Positions 41,448 through 62,524 of a stretch of 64,000 nt of DNA are shown here, piece by piece. Every line of letters begins with the position of its first letter. The first letter of the stretch is position 1. Under the pieces are notes generated by a model, which had not been told where the DNA came from, made no database searches, and worked only from the letters and a program-made list of their open reading frames with translations. The position numbers and the translations under genes were made by a program. The DNA is taken from assembly GCA_002690705.1 (NCBI GenBank), contig NZFO01000021.1:67594-131593 (forward strand). Reading direction: 5' to 3'. This DNA comes from Magnetovibrio sp. (GTDB lineage: Bacteria > Pseudomonadota > Alphaproteobacteria > Rhodospirillales > Casp-alpha2).

Positions 41448-42140
41448 CTATAAACACTCCGATGAATACGAAATACTCCCAAGAGCGCGTTTAACCGCCC
41501 CCAATTTGCTCATAAGATGGGATTTTAGCAAGACGGCAAGCTGTTCGCCATCTCTGTCCTCAAGCGCCCTCAAAATTGCCTCGTGCTCAAACATTGCCTC
41601 GTTCCATCGCTGTCGACTTGAATTAGCCAAATATCGCACCCGACGAACCCGGCCCTCTAAACCGTCATAGACACTCGTTAACGATGGATTTCGTGCAGTT
41701 TCCATAATCTTACGGTGGATGGCCTGATTAAGTTGCGAATATTGATGATGCTCGACACGGGCATGGTGAAGCGCCATCTGATAGTGCAAAGCTCTAATTT
41801 CAGCAATATCAGAGTCAGATGCGCGTAAACATGCCAATTCACCTGATAGAGCCTCTAAAGCTCCCATGATTGGAAATAGCTCTTCAGCATCTGCAGGCGT
41901 TAAACGTGTAACTCTAGCCCCTCGATTGGGTAAAAGTGTTATCAACCCCTCAGATGCGAGCACCTTTAATGCCTCACGCAGCGGAGTACGGGAAATACCA
42001 AACCTCTGACACAAATCCTTCTCAGGGACCCGAACGTCCGGCAGTAATTCACCGTGAAAAATCAATGTTCGAAGCCTAGCCACAATTTCTTCATGCAACA
42101 GTGGTTTTCGGATTTGCGTGTGTGTCAAAGAGGCAAACAT
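41448..42140 (-). CDS. GntR-family transcriptional regulator, FadR/FCD subfamily
   Basis: The 230-residue regulator has an N-terminal winged helix-turn-helix with VPEKDLCQRFGISRTPLREAL and LITLLPNRGARVTRL (residues about 25-75). A C-terminal all-helical FCD ligand domain follows, with its usual metal/ligand histidine pattern (HHQYSQLNQAIHRKIM). FCD regulators often sense hydroxy- or keto-acids and bind TTGTATACAA-like palindromes. It is encoded 13 bp after the hydroxyacid dehydrogenase on the same strand. Two perfect inverted repeats in the divergent promoter region are good candidates for its sites. Activator or repressor function is unknown. Confidence 0.92.
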   Translation of the reverse strand: MFASLTHTQIRKPLLHEEIVARLRTLIFHGELLPDVRVPEKDLCQRFGISRTPLREALKVLASEGLITLLPNRGARVTRLTPADAEELFPIMGALEALSGELACLRASDSDIAEIRALHYQMALHHARVEHHQYSQLNQAIHRKIMETARNPSLTSVYDGLEGRVRRVRYLANSSRQRWNEAMFEHEAILRALEDRDGEQLAVLLKSHLMSKLGAVKRALGSISYSSECL

Positions 42141-42153
42141 TTACAAAGTATAG

Positions 42154-45141
42154 TCATTTGACTTCCCTATTTACCAACGCTCGCTCGAGCACCGCAGCGA
42201 CATGGACGGCTTTGCGCGCAGTTCCATCATAAATCTGATGCCGGCAGCTGGTACCGTCAGCCACAATTAATGACTCCGCGTCAGCCGCGCGGACAACTGG
42301 TAATAAGCTCAATTCAGCCATTCGCATCGAGTTTTCAAAGTTATCAACATCGTAACCAAAGGCGCCAGCCATGCCACAACAACTGCTCTCGATTGTTTCA
42401 ATCTTGAGGTTCGGAATTAGCGAGAGTGATTCCTCAACTGCCCCCATAACTCCAAATGCTTTTTGGTGACAATGACCGTGCAATAATGCTTTACGCTCTG
42501 GTAATGGTTTGAGATTAAGCTTTAAACGTTTCGCTTCACTCTCTCGCGTTAAAAATTCTTCAAACAACAGAGCTTGATCAGATAACTTACGGGCTGCATC
42601 TCTTGGAATAAGAGCGCTGAATTCGTCGCGCATAGTTAATAAACAAGATGGCTCCAATCCAACTATTGGAACGCCACGTTCTACAAATGGTAATAATGCG
42701 TCAACTGTCCGGAGGGCCTCTTTTCGCGCTTGATCAACAAGACCGGCTGCAAGAAATGTTCGACCACAACAGAGTGGTCGACTGCTGCGTCGGTCATTTG
42801 CAAGATGGACCCGATACCCACCTGCTTCCAATACCGCCACGGCAGAGCGAGCATTTTCCGGCTCAAACCAGGTGGTAAAAGTATCAGCCCACAAGACTAC
42901 CTCTGGACCGTGCTCAGTCTTGGATGCCAAACTATTGGAGTTGAATGGCACTAAGCTCCATGCTGGTAACTTACGTTGCGCACTAAATCCGGTCAGTATC
43001 TCACTCAACTTGGCAAGACCTGGTAAGCGGTCACGCAAATTCAAAAACCACCCAAACTTGCTCGCCCACGGCGCATAAAGCGGCAGGAACGCTACGAGTC
43101 TATCAAAAATACGCATGCCATGCCGTTGACCAAAATGATATAGGAATTCTGTTTTCATCCGCGTCATATCTACGCCAGTTGGACACTCCCGCTTACATCC
43201 TTTGCACCCAATACAAAGTCTCATGGTTTCAGCCATAGAGTCAGACGTAAACGCTTCTGGGCCAAGCTGACCTGATATTGCGAGACGCAATGTGTTAGCT
43301 CGTCCACGGGTTACATGTTGCTCGTCTTTTGTAATTCGGTAGCTGGGACACATCACTCCGCCATCGCGTTTGCGACAAGCCCCGTTATTGTTACACATTT
43401 CAATTGCATCAGAAAAACCACCCCATTCAGACCAATCAAGTGCGGTATCGGGCATATGTGCCTCATAACCAGGTTTATATCGAAAAAGGGCACGATCATC
43501 CATTTTTGGTGGGTCAACAATTTTGCCCGGATTCATAATCCCGGCAACATCAAATTGCGCTTTGACCTCTCTGAAAGTATCAATCATCGCCGAACCGAAC
43601 ATGGCCTCATGAAACTCGGACCTAACCAATCCATCACCGTGCTCGCCAGAATGTGAACCTTTATATTCACGAACTATCTCGAATGCAGCTTCCGCGATAA
43701 CACGCATCTTGCGCGTATCAAGATCGGTTTTTAAATTTAGAACAGGCCGCACATGCAAGCATCCGACCGAAGCGTGGGCATACCAAGTGCCCTTAGTGTC
43801 GTGTTTATCAAAAACCTCCGTCAAACGCGCCGTGTAATCTGCTAAATCTTCTAATCGAACTGCGCAGTCTTCGATAAATGAGATCGGCTTGCCCTCCGTT
43901 TTCATGGACATCATTATGTTGAGACCTGATTTCCTCACCTCCCACACATCCTTTTGAAAATTCAGGTCGGATGCTTCAACAACCCCGTTAGCGAAGCCCA
44001 TATCCGCCATTAAACAAACCAGATCGGCCAATTTTTTACGCTGAGTATTTGGTTCGTCCCCGGCAAACTCAACCAAAAGTAATGCATCAGGCTCACCTTT
44101 CACGAATCGGTCAACTGACGTCTTAAACATGGGAATGTCACGGGCTAGATTTATCATTGTACGGTCAACTAACTCTACGGCCGAAGGTCCAAGTTCGACT
44201 ATGTACTGGGTTGAGGCCATCGCCTCATAGAAGGTTGGGAAATGGCAAATGCCTAATACTTTATGTTCAGGCAGGGGTTTTAGCTCTAGTTCCAATCCCG
44301 TGGAGAAAGCCAAGGTGCCCTCAGATCCCACAAGTAGGTGTGCCAAATTAGGGTGGGTTTGCGGCTGCCCTATGGTGCCTTTTACCCAATCACCACGTGG
44401 TGCTCCCCCTGGAATAAGCGCGTCCACATTATAGCCACCAACCCGGCGCATAACATCAGGAAAATTAGCCCTGATGGTCCCCATGCGACGCCGACCTATG
44501 TCCAAAACCTCACTGACAAGCCCTGACTGATATTTACTTAAATGAGCAAGAGAAGCGTTATCAGAAACCTCACCGAAGGTCATCACTGAGCTGTCAGGCA
44601 ATACTGCTTTAATAGCGTGAACATTATCACGCATCGTTCCATAAACTATCGAGCGCGCCCCACACGAATTGTTTCCAGCCATCCCACCCAAAGTAGCACG
44701 ACTCGAAGTTGAAACATCTACAGGAAACCATAGACCGTGTGGCTTCAAGTATGCATTGAGATGGTCGAGAACTAACCCCGGTTCAACTAGGACATGCCTA
44801 GATTCTAGATCGAAGCTTTTGATTTTATTCAGGTGCTTTGTACAATCAACGACCAGAGCCTCGCCGACAGTTTGGCCACATTGGGACGTGCCTCCACCCC
44901 TCGGCAAAAGACCAATCCCCTCGTTTTTCGCTAGGTCTACTACCACACGGATGTCATCTTCCGTTTTTGGAATAACCACACCGATAGGCTCTATTTGATA
45001 ATGGGAAGCATCCGTGGAATAACGTCCCCGAGTGAAAGGGTCGAAGTGCACCTCCCCTTCTATCGACGACACTAAACGCTGCATGAGACGTGACTCGCCT
45101 ATACGCCCGGAACCAGTGAGGCGAGGCCTTGAACTCGACAT
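42154..45141 (-). CDS. FAD-linked oxidase with Fe-S and CCG domains (D-2-hydroxyacid dehydrogenase, YdiJ/D-lactate type)
   Basis: The 995-residue protein fuses three modules. First is an FAD-binding PCMH domain (LLPRGGGTSQCGQTVG, GMAGNNSCGARSI) with a vanillyl-oxidase-like C-domain (HGDGLVRSEFHEAMFG). Next is a ferredoxin-type unit with CNNNGACRKRDGGVMCPSYR and CIGCKGCKRECPTG that holds two Fe-S clusters. Last is a C-terminal CCG unit (CCGRTFLAAGLVDQARKEA, SSCCGMAGAFGYD). Relatives oxidise D-2-hydroxyglutarate or D-lactate and pass electrons to the membrane quinone pool. The substrate is not fixed by sequence. I chose ATG 45141, which has AGGA about eight bases upstream; a frame to 45201 would cover a palindrome in the promoter region. 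Confidence 0.9.
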   Translation of the reverse strand: MSSSRPRLTGSGRIGESRLMQRLVSSIEGEVHFDPFTRGRYSTDASHYQIEPIGVVIPKTEDDIRVVVDLAKNEGIGLLPRGGGTSQCGQTVGEALVVDCTKHLNKIKSFDLESRHVLVEPGLVLDHLNAYLKPHGLWFPVDVSTSSRATLGGMAGNNSCGARSIVYGTMRDNVHAIKAVLPDSSVMTFGEVSDNASLAHLSKYQSGLVSEVLDIGRRRMGTIRANFPDVMRRVGGYNVDALIPGGAPRGDWVKGTIGQPQTHPNLAHLLVGSEGTLAFSTGLELELKPLPEHKVLGICHFPTFYEAMASTQYIVELGPSAVELVDRTMINLARDIPMFKTSVDRFVKGEPDALLLVEFAGDEPNTQRKKLADLVCLMADMGFANGVVEASDLNFQKDVWEVRKSGLNIMMSMKTEGKPISFIEDCAVRLEDLADYTARLTEVFDKHDTKGTWYAHASVGCLHVRPVLNLKTDLDTRKMRVIAEAAFEIVREYKGSHSGEHGDGLVRSEFHEAMFGSAMIDTFREVKAQFDVAGIMNPGKIVDPPKMDDRALFRYKPGYEAHMPDTALDWSEWGGFSDAIEMCNNNGACRKRDGGVMCPSYRITKDEQHVTRGRANTLRLAISGQLGPEAFTSDSMAETMRLCIGCKGCKRECPTGVDMTRMKTEFLYHFGQRHGMRIFDRLVAFLPLYAPWASKFGWFLNLRDRLPGLAKLSEILTGFSAQRKLPAWSLVPFNSNSLASKTEHGPEVVLWADTFTTWFEPENARSAVAVLEAGGYRVHLANDRRSSRPLCCGRTFLAAGLVDQARKEALRTVDALLPFVERGVPIVGLEPSCLLTMRDEFSALIPRDAARKLSDQALLFEEFLTRESEAKRLKLNLKPLPERKALLHGHCHQKAFGVMGAVEESLSLIPNLKIETIESSCCGMAGAFGYDVDNFENSMRMAELSLLPVVRAADAESLIVADGTSCRHQIYDGTARKAVHVAAVLERALVNREVK

Positions 45142-45180
45142 ATCTCTTTTCCTAGTTACTTTGAATAAACCATAAACTAT

Positions 45181-45198
45181 CATTTTGCATACAAAATG
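45181..45198. promoter_or_regulatory. Perfect inverted repeat, candidate GntR (FCD) operator 1
   Basis: CATTTTG and CAAAATG form a perfect 7-4-7 inverted repeat centred on CATA, giving TTTTGCATACAAAA. This is close to the TTGTATACAA-like sites bound by FCD-type GntR regulators. It sits 40 bases upstream of the hydroxyacid dehydrogenase start, in the promoter zone. Confidence 0.6.
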
Positions 45199-45279
45199 CA
45201 ATAAGTTTACTCACCCACTGGAGGATTGATCTGAAATATGGGGAATAACTATTATCATAAATGTGGTTGCAGTGGACAT

Positions 45280-45300
45280 AAATGAATGCATAATTCATTT
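45280..45300. promoter_or_regulatory. Perfect inverted repeat, candidate operator 2
   Basis: AAATGAAT (45280-45287) and ATTCATTT (45293-45300) are perfect reverse complements around GCATA. The centre TGCATA is shared with the other palindrome 99 bases away. It ends 28 bases before the aminotransferase ATG. The pair would let one regulator control both divergent transcripts. Confidence 0.5.
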
Positions 45301-45328
45301 AGCTTGTATATTGAAGGGTTATTTTATC

Positions 45329-46498
45329 ATGGCTTTCCGTAGTGGCCGTCATTATTTGCAGATACCGGGTCCAAGCAATGTACCAGATCGCATTCTCCGC
45401 GCCATCGACCACCCTACGATAGATCATCGCGGACCCGATTTTGCCGAGCTCGGCCACACCTGCCTTAATGGCATGAAAAAAATCTTTAAAACTAAAAGCC
45501 ACGTAATTATTTACCCAGCGTCTGGAACAGGTGCTTGGGAAGCTGCGTTGGTAAATGTGCTTAGCCCGGGTGATAAAGTTCTGATGTACGAAACCGGACA
45601 GTTCGCGTCACTTTGGAATGAACTGGCACAGCGAATTGGTCTCTTACCCGAGTTTATAGAGGGAACTTGGCGTAGCGGAGCAGACGCGGGAGCTATTGAA
45701 GAACGTCTCAAAGGAGACACAAAACATGAAATAAAGGCTGTTTGCGTCGTCCATAACGAGACATCGACGGGTGCAACTTCTAATATCCCCGCAGTGCGCG
45801 CCGCGTTGAATACCGCGCACCATCCAGCACTTTTAATCGTTGATACTATCTCATCGTTGGCCTCCATCGATTATCGTCATGACGAATGGGGGGTTGACAT
45901 CACTGTTTCTGGTTCGCAAAAAGGCCTGATGCTGCCGCCCGGGCTGAGCTTCAACGCAATCAGCGAAAAGGCTCTCAAAGCAAGTGAGACCGCTGTACTG
46001 CCGAGATCTTACTGGGATTGGTCATCAATGATTGAAAATAACAAGACGGGGTATTTTCCCTATACGCCGGCCACTAACCTACTCTACGGCTTAAAAGAAG
46101 CACTTGCTATGCTTTTCGAGGAAGGGCTAGCCAACGTATTTGCGCGCCATAACCGTCACGCGGAAGCCACTCGGCAAGCAGTGCAAGCTTGGGGCATGGA
46201 AATTCTATGCAATAACCCGAATGAATTCTCAAGCGTATTAACCGCCGTTGTGGTGCCTGACAACATTGATGCTGATTATCTCCGCAGTGTGATTTTAAAC
46301 AATTTCGACATGTCACTCGGGACAGGACTTGGTAAAATGAAAGGTAAAATATTCCGCATTGGGCATCTTGGGGACTTTAATGATCTTGCGTTAATCGGCA
46401 CGCTTGCTGGCGTTGAAATGGGCTTAAGCCTGGCACAAGTTCCTTATCAAAAAGGGGGGGTCGAGAGGGCTATGACTTACCTAGCGAAGTCGTCCTAA
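45329..46498 (+). CDS. Class V aminotransferase of the alanine/serine-glyoxylate family
   Basis: The 389-residue PLP enzyme begins with LQIPGPSNVPDRILRAIDHP, the hallmark of alanine-glyoxylate/serine-glyoxylate aminotransferases. It has the PLP lysine in VSGSQKGLMLPPGLSF (near residue 200). It likely moves an amino group from Ser or Ala to glyoxylate, though other oxo-acids are possible in this family. ATG 45329 has GAAGGG ten bases upstream. It is the first gene of a + strand operon whose next start overlaps its stop (TAATG), and it is divergent from the hydroxyacid dehydrogenase. Confidence 0.9.
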   Translation: MAFRSGRHYLQIPGPSNVPDRILRAIDHPTIDHRGPDFAELGHTCLNGMKKIFKTKSHVIIYPASGTGAWEAALVNVLSPGDKVLMYETGQFASLWNELAQRIGLLPEFIEGTWRSGADAGAIEERLKGDTKHEIKAVCVVHNETSTGATSNIPAVRAALNTAHHPALLIVDTISSLASIDYRHDEWGVDITVSGSQKGLMLPPGLSFNAISEKALKASETAVLPRSYWDWSSMIENNKTGYFPYTPATNLLYGLKEALAMLFEEGLANVFARHNRHAEATRQAVQAWGMEILCNNPNEFSSVLTAVVVPDNIDADYLRSVILNNFDMSLGTGLGKMKGKIFRIGHLGDFNDLALIGTLAGVEMGLSLAQVPYQKGGVERAMTYLAKSS

Positions 46499-47295
46499 TG
46501 AGTTCCGAAAATGACGAGAAGACAGTTATTATCGAGCGAAATAATAATGATATCGTCACAGTCGTTCTCAACCGGCCACATAAATTAAATGCCTTTACTC
46601 GGTCTATGTGGGGCCGAATGGGCGAGGTGTTTCGGGAATTGAACTCAGACGACACTATCCGTTGTATTATTATCCGCGGTGCCGGCGAAAGAGCTTTTGG
46701 ACCGGGGAATGATATTTCTGAATTTAAAACAGAACGAAACAACGGGGACCAGGCAAAAGTCTATGGTGAACTAATGCACGAGACCATACAGGCGTTGAGA
46801 GCACTTCGTCACCCAACCGTAGCCATGATCCATGGTATCTGCGTTGGAGGCGGTCTCGAAATTGCCGGTCTTTGCGACATTCGGGTCTGCGGTGAGAGTT
46901 CAAAATTTGGTGCACCTATCGCCAAGCTTGGGTTAGTAATGGCCTATCAAGAAATATCATGCCTCAAAGACCTAATTGGTCACCAAGGTGCGCTCGAGGT
47001 ATTGTTAGAGGCTCGGACTATGAATGCTAAAGAGGCTGAACAGAGGGGCATTGTGAGCCGTGTTACACGAGACGAGGACGTGGAATCAGAGGCTATCGCG
47101 ACTGCAGAGCGCATTGCAGCGGGTGCACCTTTAGTTCACAGATGGCATAAAAAATTTCTTAACCGACTCCGGGATGCGAGGCCTCTGACCAAAGCCGAAC
47201 TAGACGAGGGTTTCGATTGTTACGACACAGAAGATTTTCAGACTGGTTACAACGCCTTTCTCAATAAAGAAACGCCCTTATTTAAGGGAAAATAA
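46498..47295 (+). CDS. Enoyl-CoA hydratase/isomerase family protein (crotonase fold), with an altered active site
   Basis: The 265-residue protein has the crotonase oxyanion elements in ERAFGPGNDISEF and HGICVGGGLEIAGLCDIRV. The first catalytic Glu of enoyl-CoA hydratases (in GGGxE) is kept. The second, usually in FGxPE, is replaced: the segment reads FGAPIAKLGL. One-Glu crotonases often catalyse isomerisation, decarboxylation or hydrolysis instead of hydration, so the reaction is uncertain. Its start overlaps the aminotransferase stop by one base, and a CoA-transferase gene follows after 25 bp. Confidence 0.85.
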   Translation: MSSENDEKTVIIERNNNDIVTVVLNRPHKLNAFTRSMWGRMGEVFRELNSDDTIRCIIIRGAGERAFGPGNDISEFKTERNNGDQAKVYGELMHETIQALRALRHPTVAMIHGICVGGGLEIAGLCDIRVCGESSKFGAPIAKLGLVMAYQEISCLKDLIGHQGALEVLLEARTMNAKEAEQRGIVSRVTRDEDVESEAIATAERIAAGAPLVHRWHKKFLNRLRDARPLTKAELDEGFDCYDTEDFQTGYNAFLNKETPLFKGK

Positions 47296-47320
47296 TCAAT
47301 CAGGGATAAAATAGCAGAGA

Positions 47321-48529
47321 ATGTTTCAAAAAACTGGACCATTGATAGGTGTAAAAGTGATTGAGATGTGTCATGTGATGGCAGGACCTACTTGTGGGCG
47401 TATGCTTGCGGATATGGGCGCTGACGTTATTAAACTCGAGCGAGTTCCAGACGGCGATGACACCCGGCGGATGGTACCCCCCAATATTAAAGACGAGTCG
47501 TCTGCATTCATGATGATGAACTGCAACAAGCGTGGCATCGCCATTAATCTAAAGAATAAACGCGGCAAGGATTTATTGCTACGAATGGTGTCTGACACAG
47601 ACATTCTTACTGAGAACTACCGACCAGATACCATGGCTAAACTCGGTCTAGGTTATAATAAATTAAAAGAAATTAATCCCGCTCTCGTCTATTGCGCTAT
47701 TTCTGGTTTTGGTCGCACAGGCCCTTATGCGTTGCGAGGAGGATATGACCTGATAGCTCAAGGCATGAGTGGCTTGATGAGCGTAACTGGCGAAGCACCG
47801 AATCGCCAGCCTGTTAAGGTGGGCGGACCTGTGTGTGATATCACTGCGGGAATCCTCGCGGCTATGGGTATTCTCGCAGCGTACGTCCATCGCCTCAAAA
47901 CTGGAAGAGGCCAGTTGGTGGACACCTCCCTATTTGAAGCCGGCGTTACCCATACTTATTGGCAATCCGCCATCGCACTGGCAACGGGAATAGCACCCGG
48001 CCCCATGGGATCGGCACATCCTTTAAATGGGCCTTATCAAGCCGTTGAGGCAGCTGATGGTTGGATCACCTTTTCTGGCGCGAATACACGTAATTGGCGC
48101 CGACTGACGGAATTGCTGGGGATGCCAGAGATTGCAAACGACCCACGCTTTCATGATAACGAGGGCCGCATGGCTAATTTAGAGGATTTAATGGAGTTAT
48201 TGTCAGTGGAGTTTAGGAAAAAATCCCGAGCAACGTGGTTAAAAGAGCTAGAAAAAGCGAAAATCCCTGCCGGCCCAGTTCTAGACATTAATGAGATGCA
48301 CGCCGACCTCCACACCCAAGCACGTGACATGGTCGTAGAAGTAAATCACAATGGGATTGGTCCAGTTAAAACTATAGGTTGCCCCGTGAAATTCTCAGAA
48401 ACACCGAGTGCGGTGCATGCTGGAGCTCCGCTTTATGCGGAGCACACACACGAAGTTTTAGCTGAGTTCGGGCTAGAAAAGGACGAGATAGATAGCCTCG
48501 TTACCGACGGTGCAATTATTATGAAATAA
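47321..48529 (+). CDS. Class III CoA-transferase (CaiB/BaiF family)
   Basis: The 402-residue protein moves CoA between acyl groups through a catalytic aspartate. The signature N-terminus GVKVIEMCHVMAGPTCGRMLADMGADVIKLE and the aspartate in KVGGPVCDITAGILAAM (near residue 170) are present. GYDLIAQGMSGLMSVTG also matches the family. The acyl donor and acceptor are not predictable. As the last gene of the aminotransferase-crotonase-CoA-transferase operon, it could activate the acid made by the divergent dehydrogenase. Confidence 0.92.
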   Translation: MFQKTGPLIGVKVIEMCHVMAGPTCGRMLADMGADVIKLERVPDGDDTRRMVPPNIKDESSAFMMMNCNKRGIAINLKNKRGKDLLLRMVSDTDILTENYRPDTMAKLGLGYNKLKEINPALVYCAISGFGRTGPYALRGGYDLIAQGMSGLMSVTGEAPNRQPVKVGGPVCDITAGILAAMGILAAYVHRLKTGRGQLVDTSLFEAGVTHTYWQSAIALATGIAPGPMGSAHPLNGPYQAVEAADGWITFSGANTRNWRRLTELLGMPEIANDPRFHDNEGRMANLEDLMELLSVEFRKKSRATWLKELEKAKIPAGPVLDINEMHADLHTQARDMVVEVNHNGIGPVKTIGCPVKFSETPSAVHAGAPLYAEHTHEVLAEFGLEKDEIDSLVTDGAIIMK

Positions 48530-48795
48530 TCTCAAAATAACGATCTCAAATCAAACCAGCCGCGTACACAACGTTACAAATCTTGTTTATTTTTTAATGG
48601 TTTCTGATGAAGTCATTAACAATTGGAAAGACAACTCACATTGCAATCAACAAGTAAAACCCCGATCATATTCATCATAAAATATGCCTAAAACTGACGC
48701 TAGAAGGCTAAACACAAGGATCAATCACCTAACGTCATCCAGCGGTCAAATCGCCTAACATTTCGCGAGATATGTATCTTTACCCTATCACCCTG

Positions 48796-49476
48796 TCAGC
48801 GGATATATAAAGCAGCGCGAAGCCGCCCGTAGTTGAGTAAATCAGTCACAACAGACATGAATAAATCAGCAGAAACTGGAAAGTTAACGCTAACATTGGC
48901 GTCACTCTGCTTAGTAAATGATGCGGATAAAAGCCCGATCAAACGTCCTCTATTATCTACCAGCGCACCACCCGATGCGCCTAGATTCACTGCGGCATCG
49001 GTTTAAATGAAATCTTCTGTAAGATTGAAACCTGCCTTTGAGACACCCAATGCCGACACAACCTCACTGGTCAAACTAATCCCTAGCCCAAATTGATAGC
49101 CAATAACACATGACTGCTCGCCAATTCTAGGTTCAGATGCGGTTTTCAATATTGGGAAATTTCAATCAACTTTTAATAAAGCGATATCTGCAAGCACATC
49201 CCGCGCTAGTATATGAGCGATCTTAACTGTACCAATGGCTAATCGGACATTTAATGTTTTTGCACGTCCAAGAACATGTGGTGCGGGAGCAAAATAGCCC
49301 CCATCCAGTATACAAACAGCTAAGCCTTCGGGTTCTTTCAAGGCTAATTCCGAGCTTGGATCAGGCCAATCTGGAAGCACGGCTACCACAGATTTTATAG
49401 CTTCCCTCGGAGTTTCTGCCATAGAATGGGGTGCTGCAACGACAGCCAAGGCAACAACAACAAAAAACTTGTTCAT
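48796..49476 (-). pseudogene. Trypsin-like (DegP/HtrA-type) serine protease pseudogene with two in-frame stops
   Basis: One - strand frame from 49476 to 48796 encodes a periplasmic S1-type protease: a signal peptide (FFVVVALAVVAAPHSMAE), a His region reading APAPHVLGRAKTLNVRL, the Asp block DVLADIALLKVD and the Ser block DAAVNLGASGGALVDN. The frame is never shifted but is broken by TGA at 49164-49162 and TAA at 49005-49003. The latter lies where relatives have the Gln of FIQTDAA. Around the former Ser the usual GNSGGP reads GASGGA. The intact frame with only nonsense changes suggests recent inactivation; a sequencing error would need two independent events. Confidence 0.8.
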
Positions 49477-49588: not shown

Positions 49589-50659
49589 ATGTCCGACAAT
49601 TTAAACTTGTCACACCCTCGCGTGCGTCTTGCACATACTCCCACTCCTCTCGAGGCAATGCCTAATTTAAGTTTAGCACTCGGCGGCCCGCGTCTTTTTG
49701 TCAAACGCGATGACTGCACTGGGCTCGCAACAGGTGGCAACAAGGCTCGCCAATTAGAATACTACTTTGGACAAGCATCCGTCTCAGACGCGGATACGAT
49801 TTTGATAACTGGAGCAGTCCAATCCAATTTCGTTCGACAGGCGGCCGCAGCAGCCCGCAAATGTCGGATGGAATGTCATATCCAACTTGAAAAACGCCTC
49901 TCTCGCAGTGACGCCACATACTTAAGGTCAGGAAATGTTCTCCTCAATCATCTTTTAGGCGCGGAAATACATCACTTTGATAAAGGTCATGACGAAAGCG
50001 CCGCGGACTTAAACCTAGACGTGCTCGCTGAATCGTTGCGTGCCAAAGGTCGAAAACCATATGTTATTCATCTTGGTGTAGATCACACTCCTTGGGGCGG
50101 TCTTGGCTATGTGGATGCCGGCCGCGAGACTGCAACCCAAGTTGACGCAATGGGCTTAACAATTGACGCCGTGGTATTAGCATCCGGAAGCGGCTTAACC
50201 CACGCTGGCTTCTTAACTGGTTGGCGAGCTGCAGGCAAAGCCTCTCCAATATATGGCATTTGTGTCCGCCGCGATGCCAATGAACAAAAGCGCAGAATTG
50301 AACGTCGTTTAGCAGAAATCATCGCACTTGCCGGGCTTTCGCCTAGTCTCGCAGGACCCAATGATATCAATGTTGACGATTCTTGGCTTGGACCCGGATA
50401 CGGGCGGCTAACCCAGGATATCCGTAATGCTATCGACATCACAGCGCAACATGAAGGATTGATCCTTGACCCAGTTTACACCGGAAAAACAATGGCTGGC
50501 CTGATCTGCATGGTACGAAACTCTGTGCCGGCAAATGCCAAAAATATTCTTTTCCTTCACACGGGTGGTTCCGTTGCATTGTTTGGCTATGAAGAGCTAA
50601 CCATGTCAGAAAAAGGTAATTCACAGCCCGAAACCAACAAGGTTTCCTCATCAATTTGA
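49589..50659 (+). CDS. PLP-dependent D-cysteine desulfhydrase / L-cysteate sulfo-lyase family protein
   Basis: The 356-residue fold-type II PLP enzyme has FVKRDDCTGLATGGNKARQL, where the GGNK lysine binds PLP. The SGSGLTHAGFLTGW and LFLHTGGSVALFGY elements bind the phosphate. This family includes DcyD (D-cysteine to pyruvate, H2S and ammonia), ACC deaminase and CuyA (L-cysteate to pyruvate, sulfite and ammonia, known in marine bacteria). I cannot separate DcyD from CuyA by eye. AAGGAG (49575-49580) eight bases upstream fixes the start. There are no sulfonate genes next to it. Confidence 0.88.
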   Translation: MSDNLNLSHPRVRLAHTPTPLEAMPNLSLALGGPRLFVKRDDCTGLATGGNKARQLEYYFGQASVSDADTILITGAVQSNFVRQAAAAARKCRMECHIQLEKRLSRSDATYLRSGNVLLNHLLGAEIHHFDKGHDESAADLNLDVLAESLRAKGRKPYVIHLGVDHTPWGGLGYVDAGRETATQVDAMGLTIDAVVLASGSGLTHAGFLTGWRAAGKASPIYGICVRRDANEQKRRIERRLAEIIALAGLSPSLAGPNDINVDDSWLGPGYGRLTQDIRNAIDITAQHEGLILDPVYTGKTMAGLICMVRNSVPANAKNILFLHTGGSVALFGYEELTMSEKGNSQPETNKVSSSI

Positions 50660-54059: not shown

Positions 54060-54488
54060 ATGTCAAAGCTAAACCTCGAAAAAGCCAATATTATTGTTCG
54101 GTCCGCGCTTAATAAGGGCGCCGACCTTAAATTGAAACCGTTAACAGTAGTCGTGCTTGATGCGGGGGGTCACTTCATTGTGGTAAACCGGCAAGATGGG
54201 AGTGGTATTGTCCGGGTAGAAGTAGCAACGGGCAAAGCATGGATCTCGCTCGGTACTGGCCTACCTTCCGGCAAACTTGATGCCCGCGACATCAAATTTC
54301 TTAGCGCCCTCAACGGCGCTGCGAACGGACGTTGCGTGCCCGTACCGGGTGGGGTTTTGGTTTGCGACCCTGAAACAGATGAAATTATTGGCTCTGTTGG
54401 AATTAGCGGAGACACATCTGAACAAGATGAAGCCTGCGCTATCGCTGGTATAAAAGCGGCGGAGTTAAAACCCCTTGGAACGATCTGA
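54060..54488 (+). CDS. GlcG/HbpS family protein
   Basis: The 142-residue protein matches the GlcG/HbpS (PduO-C-like) fold, with the LTVVVLDAGGHFIVVNRQDGS opening, ATGKAWISLGTG and the closing GSVGISGDTSEQDEACAIAGI. Family members bind heme or take part in glycolate or cobalamin metabolism, but the biochemical role is usually unclear. It has a clear ribosome site (AGGAG, about seven bases before the ATG) and stands alone in front of a 286-bp gap that ends in the convergent cbiB gene. Confidence 0.85.
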   Translation: MSKLNLEKANIIVRSALNKGADLKLKPLTVVVLDAGGHFIVVNRQDGSGIVRVEVATGKAWISLGTGLPSGKLDARDIKFLSALNGAANGRCVPVPGGVLVCDPETDEIIGSVGISGDTSEQDEACAIAGIKAAELKPLGTI

Positions 54489-54774: not shown

Positions 54775-55800
54775 TCAGGGCAGGCTTAAACGAAAAGTAG
54801 CGATGCTCGCAATCAAACCGGCATTGATCAAATTAGCTATAACATAAAGATGAAGAGCGCGATAAATATCTTTCACCGTCACTCTTGCGCGACCATCCCC
54901 AATCCACCTATCTTGAATAATATAGCCGTCATAACGCCGCGGGCCCGCCAATGCGAGGCCGAGGGCGCCTGCCATAGGTGCCTCTACCCATCCAGCATTG
55001 GGGGACCGATGTTTAGAAGCGTCCCTCACCATTATTCGCAGTGCCGCGACAGGATTCCCACCCGGCACAAATATTGCTGCCAAAGTTAAAAAAATTCCAG
55101 CTAATCGCGCTGGGACAAGATTAAGAACATCATCGAGACGCGCGGCAGCCATACCAAAGTATCGGTACCGCTTATTATCATGGCCTATCATCGAGTCCAT
55201 CGTATTCACCGCTTTGTAAATCGCCATTCCAGGAAATCCTAATAGCAAGTACCAAAAAACTGGCGCAACCACACCATCGGCAAAATTCTCCGCCAGCGAC
55301 TCTATCCCTGCCCGCGCCACCCCATGCCCATCCAGCTGTGTCGAGTCACGACCAACTATATGACTAACAGCACTACGCCCCATCTCAACACTTTGGCTCA
55401 ATCCTATAGCAACGGCGCGGACATGATCATAAAGACTGCGTCCTGCTAAAACTGATATCACCAGAAATAACTCAATCGGCCATCCCCACGGATGAGTCAT
55501 CGTCAGCAATGCAACAATTGTCGAAATAATCCCAACAAGGGTGACGATAAACATAACAAGTAAAAGCCCGCGAATTAGCCGGTCCACATTCCCGCGGTTT
55601 TCACGATTAAGCTTTCGCTCTAAAGTTTTTATAATGGCTCCAAGCCAAACTACCGGGTGTTTAATACGACGGAACAAAAACTCTGGGTCGCCAACATATC
55701 CATCGACCAGAAGCGCGATAAGGAGCATAATTAGAGGATCGACGCCTATATGATCACCGTTTAATGCCAAAAACCCGCTTAGAGTGCTGAAAGAAAACAT
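54775..55800 (-). CDS. cbiB: Adenosylcobinamide-phosphate synthase
   Basis: CbiB (CobD in Pseudomonas nomenclature) attaches aminopropanol phosphate to adenosylcobyric acid in the inner membrane, a late cobalamin step. The 341-residue protein has several hydrophobic helices. The conserved blocks are LLVDGYVGDPEFLFRRIKHP, IVGRDSTQLDGHGVARAGIESLAENFADGVV, ysLLGFPGMAIYKAVNTMDSMIGH and APMAGALGLALAG. An alternative start lies 24 codons later in the frame. The gene stands apart from the main cob operon, divergent from the TPR gene, so it is probably transcribed separately. Confidence 0.95.
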   Translation of the reverse strand: MFSFSTLSGFLALNGDHIGVDPLIMLLIALLVDGYVGDPEFLFRRIKHPVVWLGAIIKTLERKLNRENRGNVDRLIRGLLLVMFIVTLVGIISTIVALLTMTHPWGWPIELFLVISVLAGRSLYDHVRAVAIGLSQSVEMGRSAVSHIVGRDSTQLDGHGVARAGIESLAENFADGVVAPVFWYLLLGFPGMAIYKAVNTMDSMIGHDNKRYRYFGMAAARLDDVLNLVPARLAGIFLTLAAIFVPGGNPVAALRIMVRDASKHRSPNAGWVEAPMAGALGLALAGPRRYDGYIIQDRWIGDGRARVTVKDIYRALHLYVIANLINAGLIASIATFRLSLP

Positions 55801-55934
55801 TAGAAGAGAATGCGCTCAGGGGAGCTAAAGCGTCAATACCGGTAATCGGATATTAAAATATCGAGCGCTACCCCCCTCAAATTAGATTAATCAAAGTCTC
55901 TGTATTTCAAAACCATTAGAGAGTACTCTAAGGA

Positions 55935-57050
55935 ATGGAACTAAAGGACGCCAGTCTCGCTCTAGTCAAAGCATTCAAACATTTGTTTGTGGGTATGATG
56001 GATTCGTGTGCACTTTTTCTATCTGTTGTGCCTACATGGATACTCGTGGTTAGTCTTTTCCTTGCCGCCGTAAGTATAGGCATTGTCGTTGGTTTAGTGA
56101 TTGGTCGATTTCTAAAAGCTCATAAAAAACGAGCTTTAGGACCCGAGAGTCCAAAAATTGACAAAATGCCAATATCTCCCGAAAACCCTGCCACCATTGC
56201 CTATCGGGAGTTTGTTGCCAGTAGCGATCCTGCCTCCCGCCAGGCAGACGATACAACCCAAAACTTTGCAAATACTCTAAAAGATTTGCGCCAAAAACTC
56301 GCGGAGGCTGCGCGCAATGCGATCAAGGAGGATAAATTCGAAGATGCCCTAGCGATGCTCATGATTCTAAGTAACGATGAAGGCCAAGACGGTATCAAAG
56401 CACTTAATGCTGGGCACAAGCATTTAATGGCGGCCACACTAGCGAAATCAATTTCTGGAGAATTGTATATTGCTCTGCTTGATCCTGAGTCCGCAATGCA
56501 ACAATTCTCTGATGCGATAGAACTTTTACCCGACAATCAAGAGCAGATGCTGATGGGATTACACGACCAGCACGCAAGAGCAGCTTATCAGGCTGGGAAC
56601 CATATAAATGCCATTCACTCTTTCGAAACAGCGCTCAAGTTAATGGGGGAAATATTGGGACAAAATCATCCCACTGTTGCAAAAACAATCAGCAGCCTAG
56701 CAAGGGTGTACTATTCTTGTGGCGATTACGAGCGCACTGAAAAGCTCTATCGCCAAGCCCTGCGAATTAATGAGGAGGCCCTTGGAAAAGACCACCCTAG
56801 TGTTTCAACAGACCTCAATAATCTTGCACTCTTGCATAAGCGCGAAGGCTATCTAGAAATTGCGGAACCACTTTTAAAACGCTCATTAGAAATTTTAGAT
56901 AAAACTGTTAGTCTCAGAGATCCACACTTGGTTGCTACACTTCGTAACTATGCATCAGTTTTAAAAGGCCTTGGTCGCGACCACGAAGCGATACCCTTTG
57001 AAAAACGGGCAAATGCTGAGTCATTATTAAGTACACCAACCAATAAATAG
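55935..57050 (+). CDS. Membrane-anchored tetratricopeptide-repeat protein
   Basis: The 371-residue protein has one strong N-terminal transmembrane segment (TWILVVSLFLAAVSIGIVVGL, residues about 34-54). A basic stop-transfer, a low-complexity linker and at least four kinesin-light-chain-type TPR units follow (e.g. HPTVAKTISSLARVYYSCG, HPSVSTDLNNLALLHKREG, DPHLVATLRNYASVLKGLG). The C-terminal repeats should lie in the cytoplasm if the N-terminus is outside. No partner is suggested, and it lies between cbiB and the cob operon without evident link. Confidence 0.82.
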   Translation: MELKDASLALVKAFKHLFVGMMDSCALFLSVVPTWILVVSLFLAAVSIGIVVGLVIGRFLKAHKKRALGPESPKIDKMPISPENPATIAYREFVASSDPASRQADDTTQNFANTLKDLRQKLAEAARNAIKEDKFEDALAMLMILSNDEGQDGIKALNAGHKHLMAATLAKSISGELYIALLDPESAMQQFSDAIELLPDNQEQMLMGLHDQHARAAYQAGNHINAIHSFETALKLMGEILGQNHPTVAKTISSLARVYYSCGDYERTEKLYRQALRINEEALGKDHPSVSTDLNNLALLHKREGYLEIAEPLLKRSLEILDKTVSLRDPHLVATLRNYASVLKGLGRDHEAIPFEKRANAESLLSTPTNK

Positions 57051-57144
57051 TCCAAGCCATTACATCTCCGCATACCCCCGTCGTGCCTCCGCTATTAGTT
57101 CCCCTTTCCTGGAATTTTTAACCATGTATATTCTTGCGGATCAA

Positions 57145-57177
57145 ATCGTCCGAGAGAGGCTATGACCCGCGGACGAT
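57145..57177 (+). promoter_or_regulatory. Hairpin in the leader of the cob operon
   Basis: ATCGTCCG (57145-57152) pairs perfectly with CGGACGAT (57170-57177) around a 17-base loop. It lies about 70 bases upstream of the His-rich frame and 215 upstream of cobH. I do not see the conserved parts of a cobalamin riboswitch around it, so its role is open. Confidence 0.35.
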
Positions 57178-57245
57178 AGTTGAATGCCATTTTTGAAAAA
57201 GGCTTGACATCCAATCGCAACCGCTCGAAGGCAAGGACCAAGCGC

Positions 57246-57377
57246 ATGACTAAACTAGCCGTCGCACTCATGTGCGATCAGGAAATCAATCATCCAACCG
57301 TTATACATAGAGCCCATCGAATCGACCAAACGCATGACCATTATCATGCTCTTGGCCATTGTCAAAATCATGACTGA
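57246..57377 (+). CDS. Possible 43-residue His-rich protein at the head of the cob operon
   Basis: ATG 57246, preceded by AAGGA with an eight-base spacer, opens 43 codons ending 15 bases before cobH. The product starts MTKLAVALMCDQEINHP and ends with THDHYHALGHCQNHD; eight residues are His and two are Cys. Such composition suggests metal binding, and the place suggests cobalt handling. It could be a separate chaperone, the remnant of a chelatase such as CbiX, or a chance frame. A longer frame to 57180 exists without ribosome site. Confidence 0.4.
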   Translation: MTKLAVALMCDQEINHPTVIHRAHRIDQTHDHYHALGHCQNHD

Positions 57378-57392
57378 TCGCTGGGCAAATTA

Positions 57393-58022
57393 GTGTTCAA
57401 TTATATACGCGACCCCAGAGAAATATATAACCGCTCCTTTGAGACATTGAGGGAGATAACAGATACCTCCCATTTACCAGAGAGGCTTGTACCAGTTGCG
57501 GAGAGATTAGTGCATGCCTGCGGTATTCCAGAAATCACCGATGAGATTGCTTGGAGTGGAGACCCTGTTTCTGCCGGATCGACAGCTCTGGCCAATGGAA
57601 AACCAATCCTCGTCGATACCCAAATGGTTGGAGCCGGTATCATGAGGGCTCGCCTGCCCTCCTTAAATGAGGTAGTCTGTCTACTCCATGATCCTCGCAC
57701 ATCAGATCTAGCAGTATCAAATCAAACGACTCGATCAGCCGCAGCAATTGACCTGTGGTTAGATCATATTGAGGGCGCGATCGCCGTATTTGGTAACGCA
57801 CCGACCGCGCTTTTTCGGCTCCTCGAGCTGTTAAAAGAAGGCTCTCCTAAGCCTGCCTTAATTCTTGGCTTTCCGGTTGGTTTCATCGGCGCTGCCGAAT
57901 CTAAAGAGGCGCTTATCCAATATGCCGGCGAAATTCCCTTCATTACCTTGCGGGGCCGTCTAGGAGGCAGCGCTATGGCAGCTGCTTCCGTCAATGCTTT
58001 GATCTTGGGAGCCTTCAAATGA
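57393..58022 (+). CDS. cobH: Precorrin-8X methylmutase
   Basis: CobH moves the C11 methyl group to C12, converting precorrin-8X to hydrogenobyrinate (cobyrinate in the cobalt-containing route). The 209-residue protein has the family N-terminus YIRDPREIYNRSFETLREI with the helix before the active-site His, GNAPTALFRLLELL and the C-terminal GFPVGFIGAAESKEAL and LRGRLGGSAMAAASVNAL blocks. The start is GTG 57393, with a weak ribosome site. It overlaps cobL by four bases (ATGA). Confidence 0.95.
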   Translation: MFNYIRDPREIYNRSFETLREITDTSHLPERLVPVAERLVHACGIPEITDEIAWSGDPVSAGSTALANGKPILVDTQMVGAGIMRARLPSLNEVVCLLHDPRTSDLAVSNQTTRSAAAIDLWLDHIEGAIAVFGNAPTALFRLLELLKEGSPKPALILGFPVGFIGAAESKEALIQYAGEIPFITLRGRLGGSAMAAASVNALILGAFK

Positions 58023-59242
58023 ACAGGAATGATAAAAATTGGCTCAACATTGTTGGTATTGGCGAAGACGGAATCAAAGGTCTAAGTCTTAAAGCGCGTC
58101 AAGTTATCAACACAGCGGAAGTACTGATTGGTGGTAAACGTCACTTAGCAAAAATTCCTAGTACCACCGCAAAAAGAATCGTGTGGGGAAACAATTTTTA
58201 TCACGGGGTTAATTCCATTAGAGAATACGAAGGGAAAAAATCTGTGGTCGTTTTGGCATCGGGTGATCCCATGCATTTTGGCGCAGGCTCTGAACTTGTC
58301 CGTCGATTTGGGATTGGGGCAATGAATATCATCCCCACACCGAGTGCCTTTAGTCTTGCAGCCGCTCATATGGGTTGGTCCATCCAAAATATAACTTGCT
58401 TAACCGTTCATGGCCGGGCATTGGAGCAGATTAATCGCTGCCTTCACAATGGTGCACTGGTTCTCATATTGAGTTGGGACGGATCGACCCCGGGCAAGCT
58501 AGCTAAATTATTGTCCGCACAAGGTTACCCAGATAGTCGCATGACGGTTCTTGAACATATGGGTGGTAAACTGGAAAAAAAGGTTGAGGGTATAGCCGGT
58601 GATTGGCAAATAACAGAATTAGCAGCTCTAAATACCATTGCTCTCGAATGTGTTGGCGACGCAAATGCAGTATCATGGTCCCGAGCACCCGGACTCCCCG
58701 AACAAGCGTTCCACCATGACAATATCATAACCAAGCGTGAAGTCCGCGCCTTAACATTGGCCGCCCTGGCTCCGCGGCCAAGAGAGATTCTTTGGGATGT
58801 CGGTGCTGGCAGCGGCACAGTCGCTATAGAGTGGCTGCGGGTTGAGCCTTCGGCTTATGCCGTCGCCATTGAGCGCGATCCTCAACGCATCGCTTTAATG
58901 CGCGCCAATGCTTATGATCTGGGTGTGCCAGAGCTAGAGATAATTGAGGGTGTAGCACCCGCTGCCCTTAGCGATATTGGAGAACCACCAGATGCGATTT
59001 TCATTGGCGGCGGGGTATCTAATCTTTCCATTCTCAAAGCATGCCACGAGAGCCTTAAACTCGGCGGAAGATTAGTTGCGAATGCAGTAACCTTAGAAGC
59101 CCGCCACACATTTTTTCATTTTCGTGAGCAGTTTGGTGGCGAAATCACACAAATTAATATTTCACGTTCAGGGCCTGTTGGGCGCTTGAGTGGACTCCGT
59201 CCAATGCTTGAAATTTGGCAACTGTATCAGGAAAAAACATGA
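58019..59242 (+). CDS. cobL: Precorrin-6Y C5,15-methyltransferase (decarboxylating), CbiE-CbiT fusion
   Basis: CobL adds methyl groups at C5 and C15 and removes the C12 acetate carboxyl. The 407-residue protein joins an N-terminal tetrapyrrole methylase domain (VGIGEDGIKGLSLKARQVI; VVLASGDPMHFGAGSELV) to a C-terminal CbiT-type domain with SAM motif ILWDVGAGSGTVAIEWLR (near 260) and DAIFIGGGVSN. The fusion is normal for alphaproteobacteria. It overlaps cobH upstream and cobI downstream by four bases each. Confidence 0.96.
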   Translation: MNRNDKNWLNIVGIGEDGIKGLSLKARQVINTAEVLIGGKRHLAKIPSTTAKRIVWGNNFYHGVNSIREYEGKKSVVVLASGDPMHFGAGSELVRRFGIGAMNIIPTPSAFSLAAAHMGWSIQNITCLTVHGRALEQINRCLHNGALVLILSWDGSTPGKLAKLLSAQGYPDSRMTVLEHMGGKLEKKVEGIAGDWQITELAALNTIALECVGDANAVSWSRAPGLPEQAFHHDNIITKREVRALTLAALAPRPREILWDVGAGSGTVAIEWLRVEPSAYAVAIERDPQRIALMRANAYDLGVPELEIIEGVAPAALSDIGEPPDAIFIGGGVSNLSILKACHESLKLGGRLVANAVTLEARHTFFHFREQFGGEITQINISRSGPVGRLSGLRPMLEIWQLYQEKT

Positions 59243-59946
59243 GCGGCATCCTTTACGGTCTAGGCGTCGGTCCGGGCGACCCGGATCTCATCACCCTTAA
59301 AGCCTTACGCATCATACAAAAAGCGCCCGTCATTGCTTATCCCGCGCCCGATATCGGCAAAAGCCTCGCCCGCGCTATCGCGGGACCTCATATTCCAGCG
59401 AATAAAACCGAGATCCCTATTCTAACACCAATGGTACCCGATAAATTTCCCGCGCATGATGTGTATGATAAATACGCCGCCAAGATCGCGGGCCACCTCT
59501 CAGCGGGTTGCGATGTCGCCGTCCTGTGTGAGGGCGACCCCTTTTTATACGGATCTTTCATGTACTTATTTGCACGCCTTTCCAACACCTATCCAACTCA
59601 AGTTGTTCCGGGCGTTTCCTCCCTTGGTGCATGTGCAGCGGCAGCAGGCATGCCTCTCGTATCTCGTAATGAAATTTTAAGCGTTGTCCCGGGGCCATTG
59701 GAGGAAAATGAGATTGAGGGCCGACTCAAGCAATCGAGTGCAGTCGCTATTATGAAAGTCGGCCGGCACTTGGATAAAATACGCAGTGTTGTCAACCGAC
59801 TGGGCCTCCAAAAATACGCACACTACGTGGAATATGCATCAATGAGCGACCAAAGAGCAGTGCCCCTCTCTCAAATAGAGGCCCACAATGCCCCTTACTT
59901 TTCGATGATACTAATCCGTCAACCGTCAGGTGAGGATGGGAAGTAA
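59239..59946 (+). CDS. cobI: Precorrin-2 C20-methyltransferase
   Basis: CobI adds a methyl group at C20 of precorrin-2. The 235-residue protein begins SGILYGLGVGPGDPDLITLKAL, the tetrapyrrole-methylase signature. It has CEGDPFLYGSFMYLFARL and a VPGVSSLGACAAAAGMPL block typical of the CobI branch. I chose ATG 59239 because it overlaps the cobL stop in an ATGA and matches the family start; a frame to 59215 adds eight unlikely residues. Confidence 0.95.
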   Translation: MSGILYGLGVGPGDPDLITLKALRIIQKAPVIAYPAPDIGKSLARAIAGPHIPANKTEIPILTPMVPDKFPAHDVYDKYAAKIAGHLSAGCDVAVLCEGDPFLYGSFMYLFARLSNTYPTQVVPGVSSLGACAAAAGMPLVSRNEILSVVPGPLEENEIEGRLKQSSAVAIMKVGRHLDKIRSVVNRLGLQKYAHYVEYASMSDQRAVPLSQIEAHNAPYFSMILIRQPSGEDGK

Positions 59947-59948
59947 CC

Positions 59949-61766: not shown

Positions 61767-62524
61767 CTGTTCACTTCATCGGGGCCGGGCCCGGTGCACC
61801 AGACTTGATCACCGTCCGCGCCTTAAACTTGATTCGCCAAGCTTCCGTTATTTTGTATGCTGGCTCACTAGTGCCAAAAGCCATATTGGCAGAAGCCTCT
61901 AGCGGCACAGAAATAACCGATACTGCTAGTATGGACCTCGACGCCATTATTGGGGCCATAAAATCTGCCCATGTCAAAGGTCAAGATGTAGCCCGCGTCC
62001 ACTCCGGCGACCCATCCCTTTATGGGGCTATCGCAGAGCAAATGCGCCGTCTTGATGCACTTGGTATATCCTATGACGTGACACCAGGCGTACCCGCTTA
62101 TGCAGCAGCGGCAGCCGCCATGAAAAAAGAATTGACGTTAGCAGGCGTTTCACAAAGTATTATCCTGACCCGAACAGCGGTCCGATCATCTTCAATACCA
62201 CCGGGAGAGGAATTAGCTGAGCTGGGAAAAATTGGCGCTACACTAGCGATCCACTTATCGATCAATAATTTAGCTAAAGTGGTGCGCGAACTTTCACCCC
62301 ACTATGGTCTTGATTGTCCAATCGCCATCGCCTACCGTGTCGGTTGGCCGGATGAGTTAATAATCGAGGGTCAATTGTCAGATATTAGGAAAAAGATAAA
62401 ATCAACTGGCATCACCCGTACAGCCCTAATTTTAGTCGGCCGCGTACTAAAGCCTGATGACTTCGATGACAGTCGGCTTTACGCCTCCGACCACCATCAC
62501 ATTCTTCGACCACGAAGTTCCTAA
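61763..62524 (+). CDS. cobM: Precorrin-4 C11-methyltransferase
   Basis: CobM (CbiF) methylates C11 of precorrin-4. The 253-residue protein shows the signature HFIGAGPGAPDLITVRALNLI and RVHSGDPSLYGAIAEQMRRL, TPGVPAYAAAAAAMKKELTL and LAIHLSINNLAKVV. It overlaps the CbiG-CobJ gene by four bases (ATGA). Its 3' end overlaps the 3' end of cobK on the other strand by four bases. Confidence 0.96.
   Translation: MTVHFIGAGPGAPDLITVRALNLIRQASVILYAGSLVPKAILAEASSGTEITDTASMDLDAIIGAIKSAHVKGQDVARVHSGDPSLYGAIAEQMRRLDALGISYDVTPGVPAYAAAAAAMKKELTLAGVSQSIILTRTAVRSSSIPPGEELAELGKIGATLAIHLSINNLAKVVRELSPHYGLDCPIAIAYRVGWPDELIIEGQLSDIRKKIKSTGITRTALILVGRVLKPDDFDDSRLYASDHHHILRPRSS

Follow-up and report, generated by a model that had tools for sequence, protein, structure and literature searches.

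The 64,000-nucleotide stretch of Magnetovibrio sp. DNA analyzed here (the window), part of a genome of 3.03 Mb in 21 contigs, carries five genes in two divergent arms. On the minus strand lie the gene of a GntR/FCD-family regulator (41448..42140; PF00392 and PF07729) and, upstream of it with a gap of 13 bp, that of a 995-residue flavin adenine dinucleotide (FAD)/4Fe-4S D-2-hydroxyacid dehydrogenase (DH, 42154..45141), which matches PF01565 (FAD_binding_4), PF02913 (FAD-oxidase_C) and PF13183 (4Fe-4S). On the plus strand, the gene of a class V aminotransferase resembling serine:glyoxylate aminotransferases and BhcA (AT, 45329..46498) overlaps by one base (46498) with a crotonase gene (46498..47295; PF00378 (ECH_1)), which is followed after 25 bp by the gene of a class III coenzyme A (CoA)-transferase (CoAT, 47321..48529). 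Membership of CoAT in the class III superfamily is given by PF02515 (CoA_transf_3), with 416.5 bits against a gathering threshold of 23.3. Although the open reading frame (ORF) of AT opens at a GTG at 45263, homologues and the upstream region favour the ATG at 45329 as its start, and this leaves 187 bp between the DH start at 45141 and AT. The coordinates, strands and families given in the first-pass annotation were all reproduced, the families by Pfam and NCBIfam profile searches of the window proteins. Its description of the crotonase as a one-Glu enzyme also held: in alignments to 4k2n and 5zai, the first glutamate (GGGLE) is kept, while the second position, GLPEINLG in 5zai, reads GAPIAKLG.

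Conservation of the gene set and its promoter region

The first-pass annotation had allowed that the neighbourhood might not be conserved in any relatives; a search for co-occurrence in other genomes confirmed the observation and showed far more conservation of the neighbourhood than is expected by chance. In 20 loci fetched around AT orthologues of relatives, DH was present in 16, CoAT also in 14 and the crotonase also in 10 (once with an interrupting stop), and AT stood alone in four. A homologue of the neighbouring gene that we take to be pheT adjoins the module in six of the 20, as in the window. One relative's locus (L033, 8198-10764) has tandem AT copies, 69% and 68% identical to the window AT, with DH, the crotonase and CoAT close by.

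We further scanned named genomes with an AT alignment and took the best 80 loci of a longer list, counting a neighbour as present at an identity of at least 45% for DH, 40% for GntR, 45% for the crotonase, 50% for CoAT and 50% for the binding protein of tripartite ATP-independent periplasmic (TRAP) transporters; these counts are lower bounds, with flanks cut off in some loci. The loci were picked by AT alone; 65 of the 80 have DH at a distance of no more than 10 kb from AT, and in 60 of these 65 it was divergent from and upstream of AT. GntR was found in 37 loci, the crotonase in 20, CoAT in 14, and the crotonase together with CoAT in eight.

In a class-level sample of 142 genomes, own genome included, DH (1e-220) and AT (1e-140) were searched separately and found in 24 and 27 genomes, respectively. 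With the own genome excluded, 21 of 141 genomes had both, two had DH only, five had AT only and 113 had neither (Fisher p 2.8e-18, uncorrected for genome relatedness); where both occurred, they lay in one stretch in 15 genomes and apart or on broken contigs in six. An independent draw by DH gave AT within the stretch in 16 of 23 class neighbourhoods (once at 51% identity), the full set in two of the 23 (L156, L177), and CoAT with TRAP genes in one more (L158), so few of these neighbourhoods hold an orthologue of the crotonase or of CoAT. The DH-bearing genomes of the class include a single-contig genome of 1.2 Mb, and DH also occurs in assemblies titled Pelagibacteraceae. The core of the set is a pair of DH and AT that is usually divergent and is inherited together.

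Closer to the window, DH was found in 40 of 61 relatives (1e-150), CoAT in 36 (1e-130) and the crotonase in 30 (1e-75). Among the 37 of these genomes that belong to the window's own family, DH, AT (at least 60% identity) and CoAT are all absent from the same four, which fall into two genera (G003, G010, G016 and G021); in this count the DH of G033 is a fragment at a contig end, and the AT of G007 and G027 is fragmentary. Because these three genes are missing from the same genomes and the crotonase has been lost more often, DH, AT and CoAT travel together within the family and the crotonase is an optional member.

The region between DH and AT carries two palindromic sites, TTTTGCATACAAAAT on the DH side (45183..45197) and AAATGAATGCATAAT on the AT side (45280..45294), 35-49 bp upstream of the AT start codon. 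Their core, TGNATNCA, is present in 32 of 66 distinct divergent DH-AT regions, while 200 dinucleotide shuffles gave a mean of 3.5 and at most 10. The core was, however, picked after inspection of the aligned promoter regions, so that the comparison is not blind; the regions are related to each other, and some of the long ones include a GntR gene sited between DH and AT. A better control is the contrast between loci with and without the GntR gene. Once four regions on truncated contigs were dropped, TGNATNCA occurred in 25 of 32 regions with a GntR gene at the locus and in three of 30 without one (p 4e-8); outside the window's family, the corresponding numbers were 12 of 19 and three of 28 (p 3e-4). 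The comparison shows that the operator-like motif goes with the GntR gene, a recurrent neighbour of the pair, and we read TTTTGCATACAAAAT and AAATGAATGCATAAT as a predicted operator pair of the GntR protein itself, spanning both arms. For a strict 15-base form of the motif, the own genome has five matches, including the two of this locus. The other three all sit in called ORFs, one of them right where its ORF begins, and thus no distant member of a regulon, such as an operator-linked transporter, was found in this genome.

At many loci the module is accompanied by transporter genes. A TRAP importer lies in the array in Pelagibius, Roseovarius, Roseibium, Rhodovulum, Limimaricola and Pelagibacteraceae loci, and in several of these (e.g. 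Limimaricola) the order is AT-DctP-DctQ-DctM-crotonase-CoAT. The TRAP binding-protein orthologue (at least 50% identity) was found in 19 of the 80 AT loci, nine of them with CoAT. Many betaproteobacterial copies carry genes that we take, from their sequences, to be of the TctABC/Bug type, and some carry a major facilitator superfamily carrier. TRAP and TctABC systems are as a rule importers of carboxylates. What comparison shows is a co-inherited pair that has CoAT, and often the crotonase, in the same unit in the window's family, and to which many genomes add a carboxylate importer.

Active site of the dehydrogenase and a candidate pathway

DH scored 530.5 bits against the YdiJ model NF049975, below the equivalog cut-off of 1350, and 195.5 bits against the GlcD model TIGR00387 (cut-off 567.9); it is a single chain and not a set of GlcD/E/F subunits. 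The ligands of the metal, the C1-carboxylate and the C2-hydroxyl are known in human D2HGDH and mouse LDHD, according to two reports (PMC7801405, PMC10589216). DH has the residues of the metal-dependent FAD D-2-hydroxyacid dehydrogenases (D2HGDH/LDHD/GlcD), namely an arginine for the C1-carboxylate, two histidines and a glutamate for the metal, and a catalytic histidine: R403, H456, H463, E500 and H501 are invariant in 69 of 69 homologues, some of which come from the same genomes, and so is R465. The latter belongs to the side-chain subsite and aligns with Asn443 of human D2HGDH and Ile407 of LDHD, while E. coli YdiJ has an arginine there. Lys401, the distal-carboxylate residue of human-type D2HGDH, is replaced by isoleucine or valine in all 69 homologues, and two pocket residues are bulkier than those of YdiJ (L407 against V406, and I or V423 against A422). 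From the invariant R465 together with the two bulkier residues, we infer for the substrate of DH an anionic but shorter side chain, as in a C4 acid.

AT scored 466 bits against the BhcA model NF045640, under the cut-off of 650, and its best solved relative is 6pk1 (377 bits), which we take to be a plant serine:glyoxylate aminotransferase. By itself, a class V aminotransferase adjoining a dehydrogenase gives no substrate. CoAT is nearest to the succinate-glutarate, Frc and mesaconate types and scores best against dicarboxylate CoA-transferases, under their cut-offs (347 bits against 750 for the succinate-glutarate model NF052585); against the L-carnitine model it reached 140 bits. Its aspartate that aligns with those of 4ed9 and 9br7 is presumably the catalytic residue. 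The first glutamate of the crotonase is the same in all 10 copies aligned and the second glutamate of two-Glu enoyl-CoA hydratases is absent, both positions being assumed to be catalytic. A further aminotransferase of the family, 41-42% identical and split by an in-frame TGA, is found in the own genome at 165082-166250 of contig C1.

On these grounds, the reading that we favour, tentatively and with more doubt than confidence, is that the module serves the GntR-controlled catabolism of a short D-2-hydroxyacid, most likely a C4 dicarboxylate of the malate or tartrate type. DH, a metal-dependent flavoenzyme that includes an Fe-S domain, would oxidize a D-2-hydroxyacid bearing a second anionic group to the 2-oxoacid and would pass the electrons to the respiratory chain, and AT would convert the 2-oxoacid to an amino acid of the aspartate or hydroxyaspartate type. 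CoAT and the crotonase might interconvert the hydroxyacid and the matching unsaturated acid as CoA esters, thereby feeding or draining the module. Hydration of a fumarate-type mono-CoA ester could place the new hydroxyl alpha to the free carboxylate and so yield a malate-type 2-hydroxyacid for DH, by which all four enzymes would be linked in one scheme. The GntR protein would keep both arms repressed, and binding of the acid or of its oxidation product would relieve the repression. The first-pass annotation had suggested that a hydroxyacid is oxidized and then transaminated; this putative order agrees with the active site of DH and the family of AT. The complete route, in which short unsaturated or hydroxylated dicarboxylates would become aspartate-type amino acids by CoA activation, hydration, flavo-Fe-S oxidation and transamination, as a pathway undescribed so far and extending from ocean to soil, we regard as a doubtful possibility.

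Points against the proposal and rival explanations

Several observations weigh against the C4-dicarboxylate proposal. The pocket argument rests on a sequence alignment in which the D2HGDH positions were mapped via LDHD and 3pm9, and DH is only 29.6% identical to YdiJ over 945 aligned positions. AT is nearest to serine:glyoxylate aminotransferases. The module-type TRAP binding protein was not found in the own genome at 1e-90 and occurs in five of the 61 relatives. The neighbours of the module vary and include MR/MLE enzymes, a protein of the arylmalonate-decarboxylase/Asp-Glu-racemase family, an amidase, an annotated 2-keto-4-pentenoate hydratase, a carboxymuconolactone-decarboxylase-family protein and HbpS-like proteins, and there may be several substrates in different lineages. 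The crotonase is the member that fits least. It has no match (1e-75) in nine of the 33 family genomes in which DH, AT and CoAT all occur (G001, G002, G008, G011, G014, G019, G025, G030 and G034, some of these assemblies being incomplete), and near the distant AT loci it is, like CoAT, in the minority, as the counts above show. In Roseovarius, Roseibium and Rhodovulum the crotonase belongs to another subfamily, 34-36% identical to that of the window; the one in the Roseibium array (36%) passes the NF004796 model (391 bits against a cut-off of 272). The first-pass annotation had argued from the overlaps and the shared promoter region that all the genes have one function. For DH, AT and CoAT this is borne out by their absence from the same four genomes and by operator-like sites tied to GntR, but as a core enzyme the crotonase has the least support.

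These losses bear on the strongest of the rivals, in which two functions lie side by side: DH and AT would form one pathway and CoAT and the crotonase another, and the two would have been joined in the window's family. Most of the distant loci examined have DH and AT without CoAT or the crotonase, as that explanation predicts, and the crotonase has been lost independently. However, the four family genomes without DH and AT are precisely those without CoAT. CoAT and an orthologous crotonase (at least 48% identical to that of the window or of Caballeronia) also join DH and AT in loci labelled Pelagibacteraceae or Burkholderiales-type and in Pelagibius, and Roseovarius, Roseibium, Rhodovulum and others of that type keep an orthologous CoAT (58-64%) with the crotonase of the other subfamily, which shows that in these arrays a crotonase is kept, but a different one. 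We consider two separate functions unlikely.

Slightly less likely still is a glycolate/glyoxylate module, with DH as a single-chain glycolate dehydrogenase, AT as a glyoxylate aminotransferase forming glycine, and CoAT and the crotonase as ancillary enzymes. The relationship of AT to serine:glyoxylate aminotransferase and BhcA would suit this explanation, as would the Tateyamaria module that adjoins bhcRABCD and the HbpS/GlcG-like genes that recur nearby. Glycolate, however, offers no partner for the invariant arginine of the side-chain subsite, and the GlcE subunit of the ordinary glycolate dehydrogenase accompanies DH in 37 of 40 DH-bearing relatives, own genome included (1e-70 or better), and, in the class-level sample, in 22 of the 23 genomes with DH (1e-45). 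In two studies, deletion of glcDEF abolished growth on glycolate in Paracoccus denitrificans (PMC11323563) and in Cupriavidus necator (PMC7486775), strains that may or may not carry DH. Because GlcDEF coexists with DH, glycolate is an unlikely substrate of DH and was demoted as a candidate.

More doubtful again is a pathway for a polyhydroxy acid or a pantoate-like monocarboxylate (erythronate, glycerate or pantoate), with dehydratases or racemases of the MR/MLE family acting upstream. MR/MLE genes do recur near the module, and the nearest solved relative of both TRAP binding proteins examined is 4nq8, whose ligand we take to be pantoate. Some related TRAP proteins were crystallized with pantoate or erythronate, which as monocarboxylates would also speak against a dicarboxylate, but the same source states that such ligands may be co-purified (PMC11668362). 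The similarity of the TRAP proteins is too low to give specificity, and CoAT would be left unexplained. We regard this pathway as improbable.

Least probable of the rivals is a 3-sulfolactate/cysteate route, in which DH would form sulfopyruvate, AT cysteate, and a CuyA-like gene 1.06 kb downstream of the module would release sulfite: the loci L023 and L035 have a similar gene close to the module, TauE/SafE-type exporter genes lie near several loci and R465 would go well with an anionic side chain, but no CuyA-like gene (40% identity threshold) was found in the 80 loci, a broken reading frame separates the operon from the CuyA-like gene, and CoAT and the crotonase would have no role. Among the loci examined, CuyA-like genes occur near the module only in family members, and the route was rejected.

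Neighbouring genes and known systems

The CuyA-like gene itself (49589-50659, plus strand) encodes a CuyA/D-cysteine desulfhydrase-like pyridoxal phosphate (PLP) enzyme that fits best to the D-cysteate sulfo-lyase model NF052482 (359 bits against a cut-off of 450). Between it and CoAT lies a minus-strand ORF (48772-49476) that by eye is serine-protease-like and has in-frame stops; its first 104 residues have no Pfam match, and it looks like a decaying gene. Further along are an HbpS/GlcG-like protein gene (54060-54488, plus strand) and genes of cobalamin biosynthesis (CbiB, CbiC, tetrapyrrole methylases and CbiG; 54775-62524). HbpS/GlcG-like genes recur near the module in five other loci (L078, L092, L101, L122 and L123). 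In a 1.2 Mb genome, a gene of a carboxymuconolactone-decarboxylase-family protein adjoins DH (L177, 8253-8627).

What we describe is a real, conserved and locally regulated catabolic module that is built from known enzyme families in a combination unmatched to any described pathway in the literature searched; most subscription journals lay outside the coverage of that search, so that its failure to find the combination carries little weight. The core pair is spread over many proteobacteria from ocean to soil, and DH is kept by small-genome and Pelagibacteraceae lineages, which retain few genes. If the hydroxy acid consumed by DH were named, the small carboxylates of sea and soil for which a bacterial sink is known would gain one more substrate, and a tested name could be given to proteins now annotated as "FAD-binding and (Fe-S)-binding domain-containing protein" and "aminotransferase class V-fold PLP-dependent enzyme".

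Of the known systems, the beta-hydroxyaspartate cycle adjoins one copy of the module: on a Tateyamaria plasmid, bhcR-bhcABCD lies next to it (L123, 828-6237), and on its other side the module is flanked by a gene for malonyl-CoA synthase. If the proposal were true with tartrate as the substrate, the product beta-hydroxyaspartate would feed this cycle. The adjacency is a single case, however, and close BhcC orthologues (at least 77%) are scarce: three of the 61 relatives have one, and two of these three are without DH, AT and CoAT. In the own genome there is only a 51% homologue. With no homologue of BhcB, BhcC or BhcD at threshold in the 80 loci, the cycle was rejected as a general partner. 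Serine:glyoxylate aminotransferase and BhcA belong to the same branch of class V aminotransferases as AT, but the BhcA beside the one module copy is only 45% identical to AT and its partner genes differ, no bhcBCD being present in the gene list of the window locus.

In pairing a class III CoA-transferase with a crotonase, the module is like CaiB-CaiD and AcuN-AcuK; the likeness is one of family. The differences are that CoAT favours the succinate-glutarate model over the L-carnitine model and that the crotonase lacks the second glutamate. DH, finally, resembles the D-2-hydroxyglutarate dehydrogenase YdiJ (E. coli b1687) in the fusion of an FAD domain to an Fe-S domain, in its length class, in the catalytic residues and in the HVRP motif with Arg464, and it differs from YdiJ by the low identity given above and by a neighbourhood of its own.

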